Below, piece after piece: positions 1,224 to 63,957 of a stretch of 64,000 bases of DNA (position 1 is its first letter; each line of letters begins with the position of its first letter). A program made the translations under genes and the position numbers. This DNA is from Psococerastis gibbosa (Eukaryota; Arthropoda; Insecta; Psocodea; Psocidae). The DNA is taken from NCBI GenBank assembly GCA_963971405.1, contig OZ020488.1, forward strand, positions 25,191,089 through 25,255,088. The letters are read 5' to 3'. Below the pieces are notes generated by a model. It had not been told where the DNA came from, made no database searches, and worked only from the letters and a program-made list of their open reading frames with translations.

Positions 1224-1425
1224 TTTTTTTTTTTTTTTTTTTTTTTTTAAAGTTAATCGCATACAAAAAATTTAATGATTGTATCCGATTGACCTCTTCA
1301 GTCGCCTCTGTAAGTTAGTATCCGGGTACAGTTACGACACGTCTCCGATCGCATGACTTGTAGAGACTCGCACAAGTACAAGCGCGCAACCAACTTGCCG
1401 TCGAAGTCGATTTTTGACCCGTAGG
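1224..1425 (-). mobile_element. SINE2 copy 1
   Basis: A minus-strand retroposon ending in a 25-nt A tail (seen as T25 at 1224-1248). Its body matches four other copies in this window (about 13.95, 33.75, 42.25 and 45.5 kb), sharing the blocks GACTGAAGAGGTCAATCGGA and CTTGTACTTGTGCGAGTCT. The 5' part contains GGTGGTAGCG-like sequence in other copies, faintly like a tRNA A box, but no clear B box is present, so tRNA ancestry is uncertain. A short interspersed element of about 180 bp is the best description. Confidence 0.75.
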
Positions 1426-3135
1426 CCGTAGCAGTGTTAAGGCAGTAATATCTATATTGGACTCGGGAAGCTGTCGAGATTAGATGACTGTCACTAGCAT
1501 TGTACAAGTTCAACATTTTAGGCCTCTTTATTCCCTTTAGGTAAACGGCTTCGGGCACCCCCCCCCCCCTGATTTCACTTTATGACTTATCAGTTGGAGG
1601 GTGCTGCGCGGTTTCCCTTTTGGTGGCATCCCGTGCATAAGGATGAGCATGAGGCATAGCCATATCGTCTATAGAATCCAATTAAATAGCACAATTAGGT
1701 AATTGCCAGATAGGTAGGCATTGCTTTTGAATGGCTGTCAAATTGATACCTATCTTCCATATCTGCCTAAATATGAAGTAAGGTGAGTTAGCAGGAGAAT
1801 AGTTCGACCTACCATTTGTAAAGGTTGCATCCGAATCTTCAATGGCTATCTGGCATTAGGACGGATTCCAACTTCCCGCTTTGAGCTAATACATCAGCTT
1901 CTAAACCTGGGTCCCTCAGGGTCTTAAGAGTGCGAGGTATGTCATGTGGCTGGCATTCACCCTTGTCGCATGCTGTGTTTCCCACCGATGCACTTGGCAT
2001 TTTCTTAGCCTACTTTTTGGAATGCAGTTGGGTTGAACGATAAGACCGGCATGTCGTATGTGTCTTGTAGGTTACCGTTGGACTTGTTTCGATATCTCGA
2101 GCATGCGCAGCAAGACACGACAGCTTCATGTCCACCGCTGTCCTCTGGAGTTGTCTTTGGCCTGCCGGCAGATAAGGCCTGTTCGCCTAGTGGAGCTGGA
2201 ATTCGGAATTTTGTGTTGAATGCTTGCAATACTTAGAACATGGATTCAATGTAGATGGGAGTTCTATAAGTGTTACCGGGCGGTGGTATCGGTCCCGATT
2301 CGGGACTGGAAACAAGATGAAGTCCCGACTGCGAGACAGGGACTGGTACAAAGGATTCCGGGACTGCAGCCATTAAGTCCCGGCCCCGAAAATTCATTCA
2401 TATGAAATTGAAAAAATTCGTTAAGTCCTCCCAGAAACTACAATTCAAGTACTAAAGTATTAAAATGTAAAACATTTATTTTTACTTATTCTACTACTCA
2501 TTTATGGCTTTATTATCTACATTTTATGAGAAATTGGAAGACGTGGAGCTGAGGTGTCCGATTTTTTCTTAATGTAATTAATGCCCTTAACACGTCTCCT
2601 AAAATATACTAGGTACCCAAAAGTATTCGTGGGTTTATTGATGAATTGAAGATTTTTCAATTTTAAATTGCGCTAAACTTGACATTAACGGCAGATGGGC
2701 AGCCGGCGGTTGATGACCTTGGCCCGACTTCCGGTCCGCACTCTTAACTGCCCGCACATCATCGGCGTTGTACTTTTTGGCGCTCCATGTTTGTCGGCCA
2801 TTACAGTTACCACTACCAGCCGTACCAGGAGTCTATATTTGATCTAATTATAGCCTATCTTTAATAGCTTAATGCTTGTGCACATGAGGAAGTGGGTTGG
2901 GATGTAATTTAGTGTTAAACCCGTCCGTATATGGAGCTAAGGGGGTGTATGAGTTTTAATAATGAATATCATGTCACGTTCTGGCGCCACTGTAGGTAGC
3001 CTAATTTTATTTAACCTCTATACACATTGGGCGGATTATTAACCTCTGAGTAATTGCTCAGTGTAGAGTTGTAGGAGAGATAGGACATTCGCTTCAGGCC
3101 AAAAATATATTTTTGAATTTGTGGGGTCACCCATT
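1426..3135. other. No gene seen; C run and GTCCCG cluster
   Basis: Holds a C12 run (1558-1569) and, at about 2290-2385, several GTCCCG/CGGGAC words including one small hairpin. The overlapping short open frames at 2005-2405 on both strands look like chance frames in slightly GC-richer DNA. Confidence 0.5.
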
Positions 3136-3304
3136 CAGTGGCGGATCCACAGGGGGGTCATTACCCCCCTAAATGTGTAAATTCATAAGATACCTGGTTT
3201 AAAAAAAAAGATGGATAAAACTCAACTTTTCAACAAAAAAAGTACCTTTTGAACTCACAAAAAACTTTATGACCCCCCTAAATTTTCCGCTGGATCCGCC
3301 CTTG
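3136..3304. mobile_element. 169-bp hAT-like MITE
   Basis: Terminal inverted repeats CAGTGGCGGATCCA at the left and TGGATCCGCCCTTG at the right pair at 12 of 14 positions. Inside them are G and C runs that also face each other. The flanks CACCCATT (3128-3135) and CACCCACC (3305-3312) fit a decayed 8-bp target duplication, as hAT transposases make. There is no coding capacity, so it must have been moved in trans. Confidence 0.7.
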
Positions 3305-3312
3305 CACCCACC

Positions 3313-4669
3313 ACGTCTCCTATTACCAGCCATTGAAAATCGAAATAGGTGGCCCCAGAATTCAAAATAAAATTGTCGCGTATATCTTTTTTATATTGCT
3401 GGCCTTCCCAGTTCCCCGATGCACTTTTTTGAGCCCTTCCCCTCCCCTGGAAAACGTTCTGCGGGCGCCCTTGGTCTAGTGGCGTGCCTGATGATAGTCT
3501 GTTAAATTTATGAATAGTGGCTTAATCGTGAGAGCTATAGCAGAACAACAATGCGGTGGTCGGGGGACAATTGCTACTCAATCATCGAAGTACACCTCGA
3601 GGGTATCCACCTCACCAGTGATACTATCTCTGCTAAATAGGGAATAAATTATTCAATTCTGGAGTAAAATATTGTTTGTATTGTAGTAGTGGGTGCTTCA
3701 TTGCTTCTATACCTGGACTCACCTCCCATTACTCGAAGTTATCTGTTACATTCTTTGTTATGGACATCTTATGTTATAGTAGGCTTCTTATCAAGTGTTA
3801 ATTGAATGGATCCAGTTACTGGTTTAGTTTATAATGAGGTTGTGATAAGCGGTTGGCTTAAAGTATTGTAATGTTAGTTTTGTGGGCTCTTATTGATTTA
3901 TATTTCTGTTTTACTTTTATTTATTTTATAACAAATAAAATTAACATAAATTTATGTGCATTTATTTGCAAACCGGCCTGAACGTCCAATAACATGCAAA
4001 TTTTACGCAGAAAAGTTTTGTACAATTTAAATTCCTTCATGGTACAAATTAGCTTTACTAAGTTACATACAGTATACAGTAGACTGTAATTACAAAACTA
4101 TAGTGACAAAAAACATCCTGCATCCTGCAATCTGAATGGCCCCATGTTAAAATGTTCGGCAGATGCGTAAAACTTATTTTCCGCACTACCCTACAGCTGC
4201 AGCTGCGGTTAGATTTAGAACTAAGCTCAGTGTTAATTTCATTGCAACTTTTCGGTAGGGTGTTCACAGTTTTCTTGTCATCATTCATAACAAAAAAATA
4301 GGCAGAGCAGAAGCAGCCATAACAAAGGAAAGGAATGTGTGGACTGCTTTTCTTACCAGGCGTTTTTATAATTAAGTCATGTTATGTCATGCTAAATAAG
4401 CCCCATTTTATGGAGGTCTTAACCGGCTTGGACAATAAGAAAACAGAATAGAAAAGAATGCACTGTTGATCATTAAATGCCATGTAACCGGGTGTAAAAC
4501 TTAAACACCCTCCAATTACCTGTGTACCGACCGAGGAGTTTAAATAGCCCCGGCTCACATTAAAATACCCCTAAATAGGCCTAGTGTCTGCATCCTACAG
4601 TACATAAAAATAACGAATTTCTTCCTTAAAAGGTGCGTGAAGTTAAGGCTGTAGATGGGAATAATGTAA
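3313..4669. other. No gene seen
   Basis: AT-rich sequence without recognised repeats. The 76-codon minus-strand frame near 4058-4288 resembles nothing I know. Confidence 0.55.
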
Positions 4670-4742
4670 GTGCTGTAATTACAGCACGTTTTGATCATCA
4701 TATTGTTATGTAATATACTATAGTAATATATATTACTATAGT
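4670..4742. repeat. Two perfect short palindromes
   Basis: An 18-bp perfect palindrome, GTGCTGTAATTACAGCAC (4670-4687), is followed 29 bp later by a 26-bp perfect palindrome at 4717-4742 with arms ACTATAGTAATAT. Neither is flanked by target duplications. They may be small cruciform-prone sites or MITE relics. Confidence 0.7.
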
Positions 4743-4915
4743 CTAGCCTGCATACAATAGATCGAGTGGCAACCTTTGAAGAGATAAGTATTATGCAAAG
4801 CTAACAGTTTTTTTAAATCCTAGTAATTTTTTTGTTATTTTTTTAAAATAAATTTCGTAAACAGCATTGTGTATTCCTCACGTAGGAACCGACGTACCCC
4901 GGACTGTCCTACCGC

Positions 4916-5259
4916 AATGAGGCTCTGTAGGGACAGTTTTGGTCACTAGGTTCGCTGACGACAAACCGATATCCATATTATTCAAAATGGCCGCCGTTTG
5001 CATGTGAAAACTAAGCTCTCGGCATCTAATTAATTCTTTTAATATTTTTTATAATATTTTTACTATGCCTGGACCTTATTTCGCTGCATATAATTTAATA
5101 TATATATTCTGCATGATTTATAGAAAAATATCACTTTAAAATAATACGTAATTAAAAATCATTTTAAAAGAGTATTGAGGCTTATGGAAAAATCAACGCT
5201 TTGATATCATTGCAACTGGTGCTGCCATCTACAAAATGACGTCACAAATGAACCCCATT
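4916..5259 (+). mobile_element. TIR element H, copy 1
   Basis: About 344 bp that recurs in reverse orientation at 27115-27463 with strong similarity along its whole length. The ends are short inverted repeats, AATGAGGCTC against GAACCCCATT; the second copy has a perfect pair. No open frame spans it. No unambiguous target duplication is seen in either copy, so the superfamily is left open. Confidence 0.75.
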
Positions 5260-5359
5260 GTATAGGTATTATATTGTGGTATTGTTGTGAGGTTTTTCGC
5301 CCTTTACCTGTTCCTATCGCCCTACTGTATTATTGGTGAGCAAATTGGGGTTCACTTAA

Positions 5360-5755
5360 GAGGATATGCTACGTAGAAAATTGGCACCCCAAAATTCAAT
5401 ACTTTTCATTTTTAATTTAATTAACTCAGCAAGTTATTACAAATTTGGCGCATGGAAGTTGTAGAAGACTACTTTGTGCATCATATAATCGGGTATTTTT
5501 ACTTTTCGGTTTTGTAGTTGTTCCAAAAATCCCAGAATACGCGAAATTTTAGTCCTGTCCTGTCCGTTCTGGTATTTATGGAAGAACTAAGGTACCAAAA
5601 ATTTAATATTTCCTATTATATGTTACATGAAGTAGTCTTCTACAACTTCCATGAGCCAAATCTTTAATGACTTGCTTTGTTAATTAAATAAAAAAATAAA
5701 AAGTCAATAAAAACAACAAATTTTGGGGTCCTCATTTTCTACGTGGCATGTCCTC
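5360..5755. mobile_element. 396-bp palindromic MITE with TTAA flanks
   Basis: The two halves are imperfect inverted copies about 110 bp long; the left tip is GAGGATATGCTACGTAG and the right tip, reversed, is GAGGACATGCCACGTAG. The tetranucleotide TTAA sits directly outside both ends (5356-5359 and 5756-5759). TTAA duplication is typical of piggyBac-type transposases. The classic piggyBac terminal CCC is absent, so the family assignment is tentative, but the element itself is clear. Confidence 0.75.
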
Positions 5756-5812
5756 TTAATGCCATCTCTAAATTCTAAAATTCACATTCTTCATGAAATA
5801 AGTTTCTCTATT

Positions 5813-5892
5813 TCTTTCTCTCTCTCTCTCTCTGTCTCTCTCTCCCCCTCTCTCTCTCTCTCTCTCTCTCTCCCCCCCTCTCTCTCTCTCTT
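5813..5892. repeat. (CT)n microsatellite
   Basis: Eighty bases of CT repeat broken by short C runs and one TGT. The open frame read through it is a serine/leucine low-complexity artefact. Confidence 0.95.
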
Positions 5893-7657
5893 GCATTGGG
5901 CCCAAAATCAATGTTTATTGTATTTGTGGTAAAAGTAGGTTTCATGTGTATGTATACCTTTCACTTTTTCACTTTTTCACTCTTCCCTTTGGGCATCATT
6001 TCATTATAAGAAAATACATTTTTGAAGTTCATTGGGCCTGATCCACCAGCTCATTCTTGTTTCAAAAAATTCTGTATCAAACGTCCCATGCGTCTAGTGC
6101 TGTTAAAATTGATTGAGTGATGGTTGTTCGGTGAGCTTCAAAGCCTGGTTGACGGACAGGAAGCCCCCTGTAGAAGGACCACCGGCGATGCCCGTGTCTT
6201 ACTCCCATTTATCATTATGGAGATGCTGGAAAAGTTATTTGCGTTGAATACCAATAGTACCTAGTAGTGAAATTGCAAAATGCATTGGAAATCCTGGGGT
6301 TATGCATATTATTATACGCGTATAATTACTAATACCTATATATATATAGTTAATTTCCCAATGGCCCTGATTACGCACTCTAATATTTATTCGGTCCAAT
6401 ATTTATTTGATCGAAGAAATGTTCATGTTCAAATATACCATTTGAATCTGAATTTAGGGAGGTATATATGACAGTTCCCAATTTTTTTTATGGACTCAAA
6501 GTGATTGGATCGAAGATTGGAGCAATATTCCAGTGTGGAATAGGGGGTTTATCATTGAAACATTTTCCTTGAGTTTCTATTGTCACATCTGACCAAAGCT
6601 TGCAAACTTTGGGTGAAGTATACAGTGAAAATAGCAATGTGCAGCTATATTACTAATGCTTTTTTTAGCCTAAAATTCCTCCTGTTGTTTTGAAAGTTTG
6701 GTTACTTTGTAAGGGGTTCAGCGAAGCAGTGGTTACTGCGATAAATAGCAATGTATGTACGAGTAAATTCAGCTATGTCAATTAGGTCTGTTTATCCAGC
6801 CCGTGGCCCGGACTATTTTTTTTTGATTTAGGTCTTCCTATAAAATGTATTGGTCGGCTACAAACAGCTATATTAGGACGACTTCCCTTCCCACTCTCTC
6901 TTCCCTAGCAGCAATATCTGTAATTCTTGCCCTGAGATAAAGCATAATATTAATTGCTTATGGAGCCGACATTCAGCTGTATACTCTTCAGTTGTCAGTG
7001 ACGACAAATTGGTTGGGTTCCGCCAGAATGGGCTTGGTTTTACGACGACCGCCTCGCGCCAAATAAACCGACTGTGAACACGAAACGGTCATTGCCCACT
7101 ATAATGCGCTGGCGACCAGTTCTTCTTCAAACCATTGCATTCTTGGCTCGTGTGGTCTGCGTGTAAGCCTACATTAAAATTGTGCGGGAAACGTCTTTAT
7201 AGTGGGTCGACTCTTCACTGTTCCGTATAGCTTGGAACTGCATGCGATTCAATTGTGCAATAAAAATAAGTATGATTGAAATTCAAAGGGTGACGTTTAC
7301 TGTCAATGTCGTTTTTTATAAGTTAATTTGTATTTATTGTAACAGGTTAATAATCATAAATCAGTACTCACAGGTGACATCATAATGATGTGAGTTATTA
7401 TATATTTATTATTATACTATATTTATATTTATTATTATATGGGTATTATTATTTATTATATATTTTATTAGCTATTCAATTAGTCAATGTAGGCCCATGT
7501 AAATAGATACGCAATATATACGAGTACAAATCAAATTCAATAATCTCTATTTGAAAGAGACACATATTGTGTATCAAAATGCTCCGAAAATTTCTTCTGT
7601 TTGTTCTCACATTTTTGACAACTCGAAGACTGATATTTCATGTGATATTTGATTTTT
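5893..7657. other. No gene seen
   Basis: AT-rich DNA with short AT microsatellites near 7400-7460. No repeat shared with the rest of the window was noticed. Confidence 0.5.
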
Positions 7658-16682: not shown

Positions 16683-16925
16683 TTTTTTGTTTGTTTTCCA
16701 ACGCCTACTTTCAGTATTTCTTCTTTTAAGCTACCCTGTCAGCCTGGCGGGGGAGTGAGTCTGTTTATTAACTTGAGGCACCGTATGGGCAGACTCCTTC
16801 ACCTCGGGTAGAAGGGGAGTTGACTGACAGGGTGGACCTCCTGATTATATTGGATTCCGAACCACTTGGGGAACTTAGTAAAGTCACACGATTAATTAGG
16901 GGGTGACCAGGACTCGACACACGCA
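16683..16925 (-). repeat. Repeat G, partial copy
   Basis: Shares CAGCCTGGCGGGG, GCAGACTCCTTC, GACAGGGTGGACCTCCTGAT and TTCCGAACCACTTGGG with copies at 20178-20375, 48909-49225, 61283-61475 and, in part, 35500-35762. No terminal repeats or tail are visible. It begins with TTTGTTTTCCAACGCC at the 3' side of the element orientation. Confidence 0.75.
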
Positions 16926-20603: not shown

Positions 20604-20886
20604 GTCCAGTTGATAGAGAACTGTACTATGTAACGGAAATTAGAAGTTCGAGACTCAACTAAAGCGAAAAATTCCTGGGTCTGTTCAACTCTAATGGGTA
20701 GCTACTACCCCCCTTGACGGTAGGGAGAAATTTGGTTGCTGGGCATGTTGCTGACCACAAGATACCAAATACAGTAGTGGCGTAGAGAGACGGCCCTCTG
20801 CCAGTCCTCAGACCTTGGCCCTCAATGGGTTGTCGTGCCAAGGCGATTTTTTAGTAGACTACTCCAGGGACAATACCATTAGTCTG

Positions 20887-21066
20887 GACATGTAGAGTAG
20901 TGGTATGCACTTTGACTTTCACCCGAAAGGTTGTTGGTTCGAGTCCCACTCTTGCTACATCTTCTGGCCATGCTTCGGAGGGCATGTAAAACAGGCCTTC
21001 CTAGTTGAGGGTAAGAGAGGGCCTTATAGTCTTAACTCTGCTAGGTTGGCTTCATTATTTATTTAG
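20887..21066 (+). mobile_element. SINE1 copy 1 (tRNA-derived)
   Basis: Head: GACATGTAGAGTAGTGGTA with an A box, then GTTGGTTCGAGTCCCACTC with a canonical B box. Central domain: CCATGCTTCGGAGGGCATGT, which can form a short hairpin (CATGC/GCATG). Tail: CTTCCTAGTTGAG, GAGAGGGC, and CTAGGTTGGCTT before an AT-rich end. Other copies are at 46783-46973 and 62301-62495, with a split one near 42.2-42.5 kb. Transcription would be by RNA polymerase III from the internal boxes. Confidence 0.85.
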
Positions 21067-30980: not shown

Positions 30981-31022
<42 letters not shown>

Positions 31023-31036
31023 GATAGATAGATATA
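30981..31036. repeat. (TAT)n microsatellite followed by (TAGA)n
   Basis: About 40 bases of ATT repeat, then TAGATAGATAGATATA, directly abutting the 5' truncation of the LINE. Another ATT tract (31810-31830) follows its poly-A, so the LINE sits inside an ATT-repeat locus. Confidence 0.9.
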
Positions 31037-31624
31037 GTTGAGGAGCATAAATATCTTGGTGTTTGGATTGATGGAAATTTTAACTGGCAGACACAAATTG
31101 ACTCAGTGTGTAAAAAGCTAAGATCGGCAAGTGGAGTACTACATAAATTGAAATATGGAGTTCCTTTGAAAGCTAGAAAGATGGTGTACCATGCATTAGT
31201 GGAATCAGTTATCAGTTATGGGATCACATCATGGGGACGTGATAATAACACTTACATACAAAAAATACAAAAAATACAAGATAGAATTATAACTAATATG
31301 TATTCGGAAAAATTTAACAAAAAATACAATGATACATTTTGGAAATATCAACATGCTGAATTATTAACGTGCAATAAAATCTTAAAATTTAAAATTATAA
31401 AACAAAATTATTTCGACGATAAATATAAAGCAGCGGACAAATCTAGATATACGAGGCAACAACAAAGGTTACAGATACCAATTACATACAATAAATATGG
31501 GGACAGGGAAAATAATGTGCTAATAAAAAAATTGTTCAACGAAATTCCCCAAGCTATAAAAAATGAAGAAAAAATTGGGAAAGCAAAACAAGTAATAAAA
31601 AAATGGTTGCTAGAGACTCAATAG
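31028..31624 (+). pseudogene. LINE reverse transcriptase C-terminal fragment, intact frame
   Basis: An uninterrupted 198-codon frame starts after an in-frame TAG at 31025 and ends with TAG at 31622. It begins VEEHKYLGVWIDGNFNWQ, the segment just after the RT catalytic core (KYLG..ID..L.W), continues with RSASGVLHKLKYGVPLKARK and YHALVESVISYGITSWG, then a lysine-rich tail with LQIPITYNKYG. The tail aligns with a second copy at 48240-48587. The YXDD catalytic motif lies upstream of the truncation, so this is not an active enzyme. Lack of stops suggests a fairly recent insertion. A start codon is not needed; the piece is the end of a polyprotein. Confidence 0.85.
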
Positions 31625-31809
31625 GCAAGACCTATTGAACCCACAATACCCTTAAAAAGTTGCAACATTTAGTGAAGAAGACGCCACCCCCGACAAGCGG
31701 AAGCTTTGGGGTGGTCGTGAATTGTAATTAGTCTATTTTTATTTTGAATTAATATAATCCCCTAGCTGGTGGAGTAACCAGTTATGAAAAAAAAAAAAAA
31801 AAAAAAAAA
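31625..31809 (+). mobile_element. LINE 3' untranslated tail with structured hairpin and poly-A
   Basis: Contains a hairpin at 31681-31718: ACG and CCACCCC pair with GGGGTGG and CGT (one bulged T), enclosing an inner AAGC/GCTT stem capped by GGAA, a GNRA-type loop. Near the end, GTAACCAGTTATG precedes an A22 tail. The second LINE copy has the same loop and a related terminal motif. In characterised LINEs a 3' hairpin can be recognised by the encoded reverse transcriptase; that role here is inferred. Confidence 0.8.
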
Positions 31810-31831
31810 TTATTATTATTATTATTATTTC

Positions 31832-33068: not shown

Positions 33069-33141
33069 GGGCTTGTGGTCCAGCGGTTAAGACGACGCCC
33101 CGGTTAGGCGTAGATCATGGGTTCGAATCCCGCCAAGCCCA
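33069..33141 (+). tRNA. tRNA-like gene, anticodon GGT (Thr)
   Basis: All arms fit: acceptor GGGCTTG/CAAGCCC (7 bp), D arm with GTC/GAC around AGCGGTTA, anticodon stem ACGCC/GGCGT with loop CCGGTTA, variable AGATC, and T arm ATGGG/CCCGC around TTCGAAT; discriminator A at 33141. The B box GGTTCGAATCC is canonical, and TTTTT at 33143-33147 is an RNA polymerase III terminator. The loop places GGT as anticodon (reads ACC, threonine). Two features are odd: position 33 is C instead of U, and position 37 is T instead of a purine. It could therefore be a pseudogene or a SINE founder. No intron or CCA is encoded. Confidence 0.6.
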
Positions 33142-42220: not shown

Positions 42221-42515
42221 TCCTACACTTCCTACATTCATACATCGGCTTCGATGGCAAGGTGGTAGCGTGCTTGTACTTGTGCGAGTCTGCGCGCCAT
42301 GCGTGTCGTAGCTCAGCACAAGTATTAATTTACTCATTGAGGCGACTGAAGAGGTCAATCGGATACATTCATTAAATTGTTTGCATGCGATTAACCTTAA
42401 AAAAAATAAAAAAATAAGTCTGGCCATGCTTCGGAAGGCATGTAAAGCAGACGGTCCCGGGTCTTTCTAGTTGAGTGTAAGAGAGGGCTAGAACTCTGCT
42501 AGGTTGGCTTAGTAA
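42221..42515 (+). mobile_element. SINE1 copy split by a SINE2 insertion
   Basis: TCCTACACTTCCTACATT (42221-42238) matches the end of the SINE1 head exactly as seen in the 46.8-kb copy. SINE1 then resumes at TGGCCATGCTTCGGAAGGCA (42420 on) and runs to CTAGGTTGGCTTAGTAAT. The interval is a SINE2 (42242-42418). The 5' head upstream of 42221 is badly eroded. SINE2 is thus the younger insertion here. Confidence 0.75.
42242..42418 (+). mobile_element. SINE2 copy 4 (nested)
   Basis: The only plus-strand SINE2: GGCTTCGATGGCAAGGTGGT head, GTGCTTGTACTTGTGCGAGT, GACTGAAGAGGTCAATCGGA and AAATTGTTTGCATGCGATTA, then an A-rich tail with one T interruption. A block around GATCGGAGAC, present in other copies, is deleted. 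Confidence 0.85.
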
Positions 42516-46211: not shown

Positions 46212-46782
46212 AAGAGCACGTCGCTTCAATTGGTCTATTGTATATTATTGGCGATGTTCACTGAATTCGGCACTAACTCCGGAAATATCCATTTGAATAC
46301 CGGATATGGGCTGTCTGTTGCCTGTGATGTTAACACAGTCAAGCTCATTTGTTTCACCAGTGTTAGCGAGCGGGATCTAACGAAATACGGGTTTCTCGTA
46401 TTATCTACCTGCTGCTGCAATAAAATGACATTTATAAATGGGGGGGGGGGGGCTGAACCTGAACAGTGAACCTCTCTTGCATTTAGGCTGACATCCCCCG
46501 GATGCAGCCATATTTTTTAGAGGGGGCTACCACAAAGTTTTTACATAGGCATTTTTTGAAACATATACACGAATTAATAGTGGGGGTTTAGCCTGCATAT
46601 TATTTTGAGAGCAATTTTTTTGGCAATTTCCTTCAAAATTGGTCGTGCACCTAAACTTGTTTTTGAAGACGAATGCAGCTTACAGAGCTGTAGTCTCAAC
46701 CTTTTACTACACTTAAATATCACAGTCATATTACCTTTTAAGCCATTTTCCCGAGGTTTAGGGCCCCCTACCCCCAGGTCGA
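46212..46782. other. No gene seen; G13 run
   Basis: G13 at 46440-46452. Frames on both strands at 46574-46867 overlap and run into SINE1. Confidence 0.5.
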
Positions 46783-46973
46783 GACATGTAGAGTAGTGGT
46801 AAGGACTCTGACTTTCACCTGAAACGTTGTTGGTTCGAGTCCTACACTTCCTACATTTTATGGCCATGCTTCGGAAGGCATATTAAGCGGGCGGTCCCGA
46901 GCCTTCCTAGTTGAGTGTAAGAGAGGGCTTTATAGCCCTAACTCCGCTAGGTTGGCTTAGTAATAAAAAAAAA
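46783..46973 (+). mobile_element. SINE1 copy 2
   Basis: A box in ATGTAGAGTAGTGGTAAGGA, B box GGTTCGAGTCC, central CCATGCTTCGGAAGGCAT. Near the 3' end AGGGCT-TTAT-AGCCCT (46924-46939) is a perfect 6-bp hairpin, kept in the 62.3-kb copy. It ends with CTAGGTTGGCTTAGTAAT and a short A9 tail. Confidence 0.9.
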
Positions 46974-48221: not shown

Positions 48222-48239
48222 TATTATTATTATTATAAA

Positions 48240-48587
48240 ATGATAAAATTTAAAAATATAGACGAAAAATACAGCTTTCTAGATGTACCACCAATAGGAA
48301 AACTGTACAAATATCTTATAATAAAGAATAACTATTTTAAGTATGTAAGCAAAATTGCTGGAAACACACAGAATAAGAGGCAACTGAGAAATGAAGACAC
48401 ATTGAGACAAAATATTCCTATAACACATATTAAGTACGGCAGTCGCCTCAATGAAACAGTTTTACCAGAGATATTTAACAAATTGTCACTTAAACTAAAA
48501 GAATTGAACAAAATAAGGAAAAAAAAAAGATATAAAAAAATACTTAATTTCAAATGCAGACTATTAGCCATTTTATTATACATATAA
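48240..48587 (+). pseudogene. LINE C-terminal fragment, second subfamily
   Basis: A 115-codon frame following an ATT microsatellite (48222-48237). Residues KLYKYLIIKNNYFKYVSK, LRQNIPITHIKYGSRLNE, and FNKLSLKLKE align with KILKFKIIKQNYFDDKYK, LQIPITYNKYGDRENN and FNEIPQAIKN of the 31-kb copy, at low identity. It is therefore a distinct subfamily of the same LINE. The insertion is more strongly 5'-truncated, with no catalytic motif. The opposite-strand frame 48332-48583 is a shadow. Confidence 0.75.
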
Positions 48588-48857
48588 TTATATATATATA
48601 TTTTTATATTATGTATAAAAAATTTATTATATATATAACAATATCATCCTTCAGAATTCAGAAGGATCTCATTCATTGCCAGAAGGCTAGAGTGAGTACT
48701 CTATAATGGTTTATTATTATTAATTATATTTTATATCTTGCAGTGCCACTGCACTAAGATCGCTCGATAAGCGGAAGCTTGAGCGTGATATTGTTAACTA
48801 ATAACAAATTGTTTTTTCTCAATATATGCACCTTGTCCAGGGTTACTGGTCATGGAA
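48588..48857 (+). mobile_element. LINE 3' tail, second subfamily, with the same hairpin
   Basis: Contains an AT-rich spacer, then CGCTC (48761-48765), GAT, AAGC-GGAA-GCTT (48769-48780) and GAGCG (48781-48785). The loop and inner stem are identical to the 31.7-kb copy, while the outer stem differs at paired positions. The end GGGTTACTGGTCATGG precedes A6 and a GTGAA repeat. Confidence 0.8.
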
Positions 48858-48908
48858 AAAAGTGAAGTGAAGTGAATAGCCTATCGATCGCAGAGCTGAA
48901 TCATAGAG

Positions 48909-49225
48909 ATTAGTTTGTTTTCCAATGCCTGCTTTCAGCATTTCTGCGCTTTAAGAAATCTTGTCAGCCTGGCGGGGGGATTGAGTCGGTTTCTTAACTT
49001 GAGCCACCCTGAGGGCAGACTCCTTCCTCTTCGGGAGATGGGGAGTTGACTGACAGGGTGGACCTCCTGATTATAGTGGGTTCTGAACATGAACATAGTA
49101 AATCATCACAATTAATTCAGAAAGACTCGGCACGAACTTAGAACTGACTGCAGTCTCATGTCCCTCCAGGTTCCCCTGCCAACCCTGTGCCCAGAACCAA
49201 GTTTGATCGTAGTGCCCTCAATGAA
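48909..49225 (-). repeat. Repeat G, copy
   Basis: Shares TTGTTTTCCAATGCCTGCTT, CAGCCTGGCGGGG, GCAGACTCCTTCC and GACAGGGTGGACCTCCTGAT with other G copies. Its far end, read on the minus strand, gives AACTTGGTTCTGGGCACAGG, related to the LVVC segment in the 20.2- and 35.5-kb copies but with a stop after 16 codons. Confidence 0.75.
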
Positions 49226-62300: not shown

Positions 62301-62495
62301 GACATGTAGAGTAGCGGCACAGACTCCGAGTTTCACCTGAAAGGGTTTTGGCTCGAGACTTCGAGTCCCACACTTGCTTCATTTTCTGACCATGCTTCGG
62401 AGGGCATGTAAAGCAGGCGGTCCCGGGTCTTCCTAGTTGAGTGTAAGAGAGGGCTTTATAGCCCTAACTCCGCTCGGTTGAGTTAGTAACTGAAC
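62301..62495 (+). mobile_element. SINE1 copy 3
   Basis: GACATGTAGAGTAGCGGCAC head; the B-box area is locally duplicated (GGCTCGAGACTTCGAGTCCC). Central CCATGCTTCGGAGGGCATGT and the AGGGCT-TTAT-AGCCCT hairpin are intact. It ends near GTTGAGTTAGTAACTG. Confidence 0.85.
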
Positions 62496-63957
62496 AAAGT
62501 CAATATTACAATCCGCCCTAATGTGTACTACTTCGTTTTGACGTAGCTTACTTACTTGCTAATAACAACGCATTCATTCTTTACTAGGTCTACTATATTA
62601 TTATACCATTTCAAAGTTCTTTTCATTGTTATAGTTTTGTTAGCGTGTACCCATAATAAGCTGTCTTCTATCAGGCTTGATACAAACTAGGTCGAACCCT
62701 GATGAAAGCAGATTCTCCAGCCATATCTCCCGTAGAATCTCTGGGGAAGCTGTTAGCGAGGCTGCCGTGGGTGGCCGTGTACTCAGGTTGACCCCATCTT
62801 CGCTAATGCAGTCACTAATTCATGAGTCGTTAATTAAGGTACAGTACAGCGTACCTATAAGCTCCAGGTGTTTATCAATGCACGTGAGCTTTCCCCAGGT
62901 ACGATACCTTCTGATGTCCACTCATTAAGACATTAGCTATAGATACGCTAAAAAACAGCCATCTCACTAATAAATTAGTAGTTGCGTCATGTACCTACTC
63001 TCGCCTCTGATGACTAATTCTTAATGAGACTGTTGTGAGTATTCTTATACGGCAGAATATGACAAATGTAATTTGATTTAAATCGGCTGGTTGATTGATG
63101 AGAACTTTATTTTCTGACAATCTGCCTATTGCACTATATTGCAATGATCCAGCATCAGTAGGCTACGTGGCTATACTACGGCCGTATTGGCTAGTTTCAG
63201 TTTCAATTAATGTGATTGAATGAAAAAAAAATTATTTCCTAACTTTACCCATACAATACAATATCCATGTATGAAAAAAAGTTTTTCCCTATCGGCTATG
63301 AACTGATTTTCATTTAATGAATAATCTACGTTAAGATTATATTACGGAAATAAACTGGACATGCTAATTGCTAAGCCAGCAAATATAAACTTGATTGCTA
63401 CCCTTTCTTTACGAATTAAGGTGATTCTTGTGCCCGATTTCGGCTTAAGTTTCACTTATTTATTTGGCATGGGAATTTATGACAAACATTCTTAAAAATG
63501 CCAGCAACATAAACTGTTATCTTTTTCTGCCACTCTCTGACTCATGAAAAGTCTTGAAAATTGTGGTGGTGACTGCAAGCCTAATGGGATTTTTGTCGAT
63601 TTCTTCCTAAAACAGTTTTTATAACATATCACAGTCTACCTGACAAACACACACACAAAAATACAAGTTATAGCCATTTACTAGTACATCATCAGTCACA
63701 AGGCATTGGCCTGTGTGTGGGTTAACGGTTGGTTAGATTGTTGTCATATTGGCATAATGGATACAGGATAATCCAATGCCCAACGTGATTGGCGCGGCGC
63801 ATCCCCATACTTATCTTATTGAGAGAGGTGCATAGTATCACTTGCGTGTATTATCCAACGCTCTGATTGGTGGGGTGTAATTGCTATAATTGCTATAAGT
63901 TAAGTCGCCATGTTTGATTTTTATACGAAAGTTCCTCACTTCTACCTTGTTGTTTCA
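62496..63957. other. No gene seen; probable intron or upstream region
   Basis: AT-rich DNA leading to the splice acceptor at 63957-63958. The 83-codon frame at 62677-62928 is not recognised. If the exon call is right, this stretch is intron. Confidence 0.45.

Follow-up and report, generated by a model that had tools for sequence, protein, structure and literature searches.

The window, a 64-kb stretch of DNA from the psocid Psococerastis gibbosa, carries two 5′-truncated LINE copies on the forward strand, each with two predicted hairpins in its 3′ tail. The first copy, of a family that we call A, spans 31028..31788 (+); its 5′ end was placed by alignment to a longer copy (L035), and its protein has matches elsewhere in the genome. 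A (TTA)n repeat (31000..31021, +) lies just 5′ of the truncation point. The C-terminal end of ORF2 (31106..31624, +) has no Pfam match when taken alone, and its counterpart in the longer copy overlaps the end of the frame with the RVT_1 domain. The upstream hairpin, HP1 (31681..31718, +), consists of the outer stem ACG.CCACCCC / GGGGTGG.t.CGT, an internal loop CGAC/T, the inner stem AAGC/GCTT, and a GGAA loop. An AATATA motif (31751..31756, +), recognized in the tail alignment, directly precedes the terminal hairpin, HP2 (31759..31788, +), which reads CCCCTAGCTGGT[GGAGTA]ACCAGTTATGAA and is followed by an A-tract; its outermost pairs have decayed in this copy. A further (TTA)n, read from the sequence, follows the A-tract at 31810..31829 (+).

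Similarly, a copy of family B occupies 48245..48876 (+), as aligned to a longer copy (L051), and ends in GTGAA repeats, an end that was read from the sequence. On its 5′ side, the sequence and the truncation-point alignment place a (TTA)n at 48222..48236 (+). The open frame with the C-terminal end of ORF2 (48240..48587, +), whose first codons precede the truncation point, has longer relatives in L036 and L051. HP1 of this copy (48761..48785, +) comprises the outer stem CGCTC/GAGCG, a GAT bulge, the inner stem AAGC/GCTT, and a GGAA loop. HP2 (48831..48855, +), which reads CCTTGTCCAG[GGTTA]CTGGTCATGG and contains mismatches in this copy, is again preceded by AATATA (48821..48826, +; sequence and tail alignment), a motif present before HP2 in most of the aligned tails of families A–D. 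Pfam gave no match for either of the two short window ORFs. Rfam returned for the two tails only matches far below the gathering scores, with no family that fits, and for the whole window a tRNA gene (33069-33141) as the sole match. The window also contains a 114-nt repeat in two copies that are 86% identical (16749-16862 and 48975-49088), the second of which lies approximately 100 nt past the family B tail.

The original prediction started from the inner stem and loop shared by the two upstream hairpins, and its coordinates, letters, and outer arms for both proved correct on re-reading. The exact core AAGC-GGAA-GCTT occurs twice in the window, at 31695-31706 and 48769-48780. With up to two mismatches to AAGCGGAAGCTT, four matches were found against a shuffle mean of 4.29, so only the exact core stands out in the window. 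In the 409-Mb genome, AAGCGGAAGCTT has 785 exact occurrences, and the pattern read backwards, used as a control, has 20. Sorting by eye of the 51 core matches in the examined loci assigned 13 to family A and 35 to family B and left 3 as unrelated; the window copy at 31.7 kb belongs to A and that at 48.8 kb to B. The low protein identity claimed for the two window fragments was also confirmed (33% over 85 aa). In comparison with shuffled sequences, the first window hairpin has a folding z of −3.5 (1/200 as stable) and the second a z of −1.7 (12/200); the minimum-energy fold of a family B copy (−10.9 kcal/mol) has an outer stem slightly unlike the one originally drawn (−10.4). The claim that three of five outer pairs are doubly changed depends on the register: in the column alignment, the innermost C-G pair of B lies opposite an unpaired C/U of A, which leaves four shared pairs, two of them changed on both sides. 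Collectively, the shared LINE-tail hairpin is real and broader than had been stated.

To define the families, we used their proteins and 3′ regions. The long family A copy (L035) carries an ORF1 with Baculo_FP_2nd (PHD below the cut-off), an Exo_endo_phos-type match, and RVT_1. The RVT_1 match has E = 8e-27 in A (L035) and 2e-31 in B (L036), and the RT domains of the two families are 44% identical. The Exo_endo_phos match of family A (L035; E = 4.2e-5, 23.9 bits) falls below the cut-off of 24.5, in a frame that is broken in this copy, and a segment of B related to the A endonuclease region is 40% identical; an APE-type endonuclease in family A is likely. A genome search with the family A C-terminus, in which 150 of 3813 candidates were scored, placed 7 of these 150 in 991-aa open frames. 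Families C and D were obtained from the 3′ regions of two protein groups that are 52% identical to A, with five A-like 3′ regions alongside. Their HP1 sequences are TGTCCC-AAAT-AAGC-GCTA-GCTT-G-GGGATG (C) and GCCCCC-GAC-AAGTT-GATT-AACTT-GGGGGC (D). A covariance model built from 27 A–D tails and run on 44 sequence loci gave 77 matches up to E = 1, training copies among them. Inspection of these matches revealed family E, with the HP1 GAATcCTGC-CAC-AAGCCTC-CCTTAT-GGGGCTT-ACAT-GCAGtATTC. The C-terminal frame of E (L127, with the tail after it) shares 29-32% identity with those of A, B, and C across 78-97 aa, and family E is a separate LINE. Exact genomic cores number 867 for C, 385 for D, and 206 for E, with 0 for each reversed control. 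HP1 has the same position in the tail in C, D, and E as in A/B, and the hairpin comparison spans five lineages, all from one genome. A further candidate, C′, represented by a single copy in L020 with the HP1 loop UUAU, is not counted as a family because its core was found once in the genome. Frame 1389-6551 on the reverse complement of L037 is a 1721-aa open frame that we take to resemble a Pao/BEL-type LTR retrotransposon polyprotein.

Based on the comparison of families, HP1 has two conserved parts, the AAG/CUU base of the stem and a 5′-side bulge of 3-4 nt, and the outer stem is variable. Bulge and loop are separated by 4 bp in A, by 4-5 bp in B–D depending on the register, and by 7 bp in E. 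The GGAA loop occurs only in A and B, and because the loops of C, D, and E differ, the GNRA loop that had been proposed as the common signature is not shared. With a hand-set register and a pair table for A–E, all six outer positions comparable in at least three families are doubly changed, one of the six being a mismatch in E, and of the four inner positions one is doubly changed and three are invariant. The covariation test of HP1 covered the A–D tails (26 distinct rows, 10 pairs). In these tails, 91.8% of cells pair, compared with 36.9-49.2% when the partners are slid by one column; the covariation score of 0.267 exceeds both that of slid partners (≤0.069) and that of shuffles (0.130, sd 0.018), none of 500 of which reach it. 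Four pairs are doubly changed, a count that is not above shuffles (reached by 187/500). The shuffled sets also contain more of the further pair types (500/500 reach the observed value). Collectively, the retention of HP1 in five families, the double changes at all six outer positions, and a covariation score well above that of slid partners bear out the predicted selected RNA structure in LINE 3′ tails.

Shuffled flanks match the observed HP1 outer stem 59 times per 20000 for A, 453 for B, 1260 for C, and 552 for D; because single families are weak evidence by this measure, the case for HP1 rests on the family comparison. Moreover, A, C, and D have in common C-rich/G-rich outer stems that can cross-pair in part, which makes B and E the strongest sources of compensatory evidence. 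The 3′ arm of B pairs with the 5′ arms of the others at no more than one position and its 5′ arm at no more than three. In well-kept copies of A–E, the fold z of HP1 is −3.2, −2.2, −1.6, −3.2, and −1.9, respectively, and that of the linker is +1.2, 0.0, −1.0, −0.4, and +0.2. Taken alone, HP1 of B, C, and E exceeds shuffles in stability by a modest margin, with 29 (B), 68 (C), and 42 (E) per 1000 shuffles as stable. In the tail alignment, the hairpins align and the linkers align poorly.

The terminal HP2 was missing from the original prediction. HP2 is found in all five families, just 5′ of the A-rich end. Its pairs were counted in a hand-set register because the MAFFT alignment of HP2 departed from the structure, and in this register 8 of 11 stem positions are doubly changed among A–D. 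The fold z of HP2 in well-kept copies of A–E is −6.4, −5.1, −6.5, −3.4, and −1.9, respectively. HP2 covaries more strongly than HP1. Its loops are GGAGUA (A and D), GGUUA (B), GGAAUA (C), and GGGUA (E), which conform to GG(N)NUA, none of them being identical to GGAUA. Among the copies folded, the stem is unbroken in A, in C, and in B copies with GGACAAGG; it has a U-U mismatch in another part of B, the copies with GGTCAAGG, and bulges in D and E. The tail hairpin of UnaL2 combines a GGAUA loop with one unpaired C and a U-U mismatch (PMC5135761, PMC2653535). Its loop is the probable site read by the UnaL2 RT. By analogy, HP2 is likelier than HP1 to correspond to the experimentally known LINE recognition hairpins; because of its UnaL2-like loop and terminal place, we regard it as the probable counterpart and HP1 as an addition. 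A transposon-like insert with the ends CAGCCTGATCGAGG / CCTCGATCAGGCTG lies within HP2 in three tails, two of family A and one of family B (L021 1577-1745, 169 bp; L056 reverse complement 1572-1712, 141 bp; L057 reverse complement 3600-3884, 285 bp). An insert with the same ends (L048 563-731, 169 bp) lies at the midpoint of a perfect palindrome.

In each of the seven copies measured, HP1 and HP2 are 49-68 nt apart, and this spacing is steadier than the distance from the stop codon to HP1. The latter is 67 nt in A (two copies), 205-211 nt in B (two), 169 nt in E (one), and 72 nt in C (one); a second C copy, with 300 nt from stop to HP1, was set aside from the 67-211 range, its first core being mutated and skipped. 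In the tails with paired pattern matches, 30-60 nt separate the HP1 pattern from the HP2 pattern, with the exception of a single mispaired row (113 nt). The predicted architecture is HP1 approximately 50-70 nt upstream of HP2, with an A-rich tail after HP2. Two composite tails were found: in L065, an A-type HP1 precedes the first part of a D-type HP2, and in L125, the HP1 of E passes directly into the 3′ UTR of C. Six copies (L004, L018, L054, L055, L060, and L061) have their 5′ truncation only a few bases from the inner stem of HP1, as would be expected if cDNA synthesis frequently stopped near it, in a sample that is biased because the copies were found via the AAGC core.

To characterize the insertion sites, we examined both flanks. 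At the 5′ junction, (TTA)4 lies within 40 nt 5′ of the truncation in 24 of 47 A/B copies and is absent in 23, counting copies with the truncation placed inside the locus and excluding rows that run off the locus end. On the 3′ flank, within 70 nt past HP2 of A–D tails, the TTA orientation occurs in 19 of 64 and the TAA orientation in 1 of 64; this count covers tails with at least 60 nt of flank and excludes C-type rows that had four or more errors, most of which represent the opposite strand of the palindrome. In random 70-nt windows from these loci, the two orientations occur at 0.8-0.9%, a control that matches the 70-nt test and not the 40-nt one. Furthermore, an E copy (L126) is flanked on either side by (TTA)n. 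The copies also cluster. On contig 1, 31 of 232 listed core places have a core from a different family no more than 1 kb away, compared with a random mean of 1.4 and a maximum of 8 in 500 trials; these places are exact cores (84 A/B, 88 C, 37 D, and 23 E), a few of the A/B ones being unrelated. Nesting is seen directly in some loci, such as L035, where A, C, C, and B tails stand in series. Segmental duplication may be behind some of the clustering, and L005 and L006 are alike throughout.

A comparison with SINE tails had also been suggested, and it yielded no sharing: in the one tRNA-derived SINE family examined, the copies seen terminate in (ATTT)n, and the HP1/HP2 tail was not found. In the window, tRNA-like SINE repeats with such (ATTT)n ends in the copies seen lie at 20882-21033, 42419-42489, 46778-46972, and 62301-62498, and a tRNA-derived SINE is inserted in the B tail at L019 and L029. 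A scan of genome_contigs gave 52 stretches, which were rejected as chance from the listing alone, the titles being those of bacteria and archaea. A scan of viral_contigs with the core and flanks gave three stretches, and the protein scan of viral_contigs gave no relative.

These features suggest how the tail may function. It is likely that the two-hairpin 3′ tail, common to at least five non-LTR retrotransposon families, is read by the element's own ORF2 protein for target-primed reverse transcription. The protein would bind the tail of its own RNA, and this binding would mark the correct template and set the RNA 3′ end on the nicked target. HP2 would act as a general docking hairpin and HP1 as an added contact, a division of labour that is putative. 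In this scheme, recognition of the hairpin tail by the RT is what we infer from known LINEs.

An alternative, which we consider unlikely, is that HP2 would be the sole RT recognition hairpin and that HP1 would be selected for binding of the ORF1 protein or a host factor, or for RNA stability or export. Such an arrangement would suit the position of HP2 at the 3′ terminus, its stronger covariation, its GG(N)NUA loop, which resembles that of the single UnaL2 hairpin, and the variation of HP1 loops between families. However, the spacing between HP1 and HP2 is steadier than that between HP1 and the ORF, and the asymmetric bulge of HP1, 4-7 bp from the loop, is near the 4-6 bp given for the asymmetric bulge of LINE 3′ hairpins (PMC5135761).

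Common ancestry of the tails, or their exchange between LINE families, could also make them similar with no selection on the structure. The composite tails of L065 (A HP1 with the start of D HP2) and L125 (E HP1 into the C 3′ UTR) speak for exchange; nevertheless, this explanation is very improbable, since the hairpins align where the linkers align poorly, the outer stems differ by paired changes, and sliding the partners by one column cuts pairing from 91.8% to 36.9-49.2%. We give even less credence to the palindromes acting as DNA, either as a cruciform or as an insertion target. The 141-285 bp transposon-like insert inside HP2 in three tails would agree with such a role, but the hairpins lie at the 3′ ends of retroelement transcripts, the bulge of HP1 is one-sided, and the loop letters of HP2 are kept.

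Recognition of the two-hairpin tail by the ORF2 protein would bear on how a LINE protein chooses its own RNA, which has been worked out for few elements; the L2-clade cases consulted hinge on one hairpin. Here, five families in one genome show opposite conservation, in that the stem of HP2 varies and its loop is kept, and the stem base of HP1 is kept and its loop varies. The occurrence of this pattern among the elements of a single host makes between-family swap experiments possible. Many copies lie in (TTA)n repeats and near one another. We tentatively raise the possibility, doubtful as it is, of a two-part identity code, in which the near-constant HP2 loop would be read by all and HP1, with its fixed stem base and bulge and its differing loops, would prevent cross-copying between co-resident families that all aim at (TTA)n and nest in each other's tails.

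In the titles and abstract openings of the literature searched, we met neither a two-hairpin LINE tail nor a (TTA)n-targeting APE LINE, which does not prove their absence. Many A/B copies sit in (TTA)n, similar to Dong of Bombyx mori (R4 lineage), which sits in TAA repeats (PMC3774820). R4-clade elements have a restriction-like endonuclease (PMC4640811). In contrast, an APE-type match upstream of the RT in family A falls slightly short of the Pfam cut-off, and the 245-aa C-terminal segment gave no match in a general Pfam run, as distinct from a restriction-like-endonuclease search. A conserved 3′ UTR hairpin also occurs in amniote CR1, whose 3′ UTR has been suggested to be RT-recognized (PMC4316615). 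Instead of the CR1 hairpin plus octamer, the elements here have a tail rich in A or in GTGAA/GAAA, and (TTA)n surrounds many of the copies.

The closest resemblance is to the stringent tails of the L2 clade. In ZfL2, the ORF2 protein contacts the tail hairpin through a region that lies between EN and RT, and the loop sets the specificity; W344 is needed for tail binding and W325 is not, and the tail-binding region also has the conserved P324 and E341 (ZfL2-2 numbers; PMC4176376). In the corresponding region, families A and B carry a pair of tryptophans with the 19-residue spacing of W325/W344, and T and F at the places of P324 and E341, as compared by spacing only. UnaL2 of eel and ZfL2-1/ZfL2-2 of zebrafish differ from the tails here in several respects: the latter have a second, upstream hairpin, in which the stem base is conserved and the loop differs between most families; the HP2 stem is unbroken in the folded copies of A, of C, and of B with GGACAAGG; counterparts of P324 and E341 are absent in A/B by spacing; and no partner SINE was seen. 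Like these stringent tails, the tails here have a terminal hairpin with a GGAUA-like loop and short repeats after it, and family B copies with GGTCAAGG share with UnaL2 a U-U mismatch in the HP2 stem. The mark of the stringent type, a 3′ UTR hairpin near the 3′ end kept by compensatory change, is present in these families. Collectively, the tail is best read as a putative two-hairpin form of the known stringent LINE 3′ tail.
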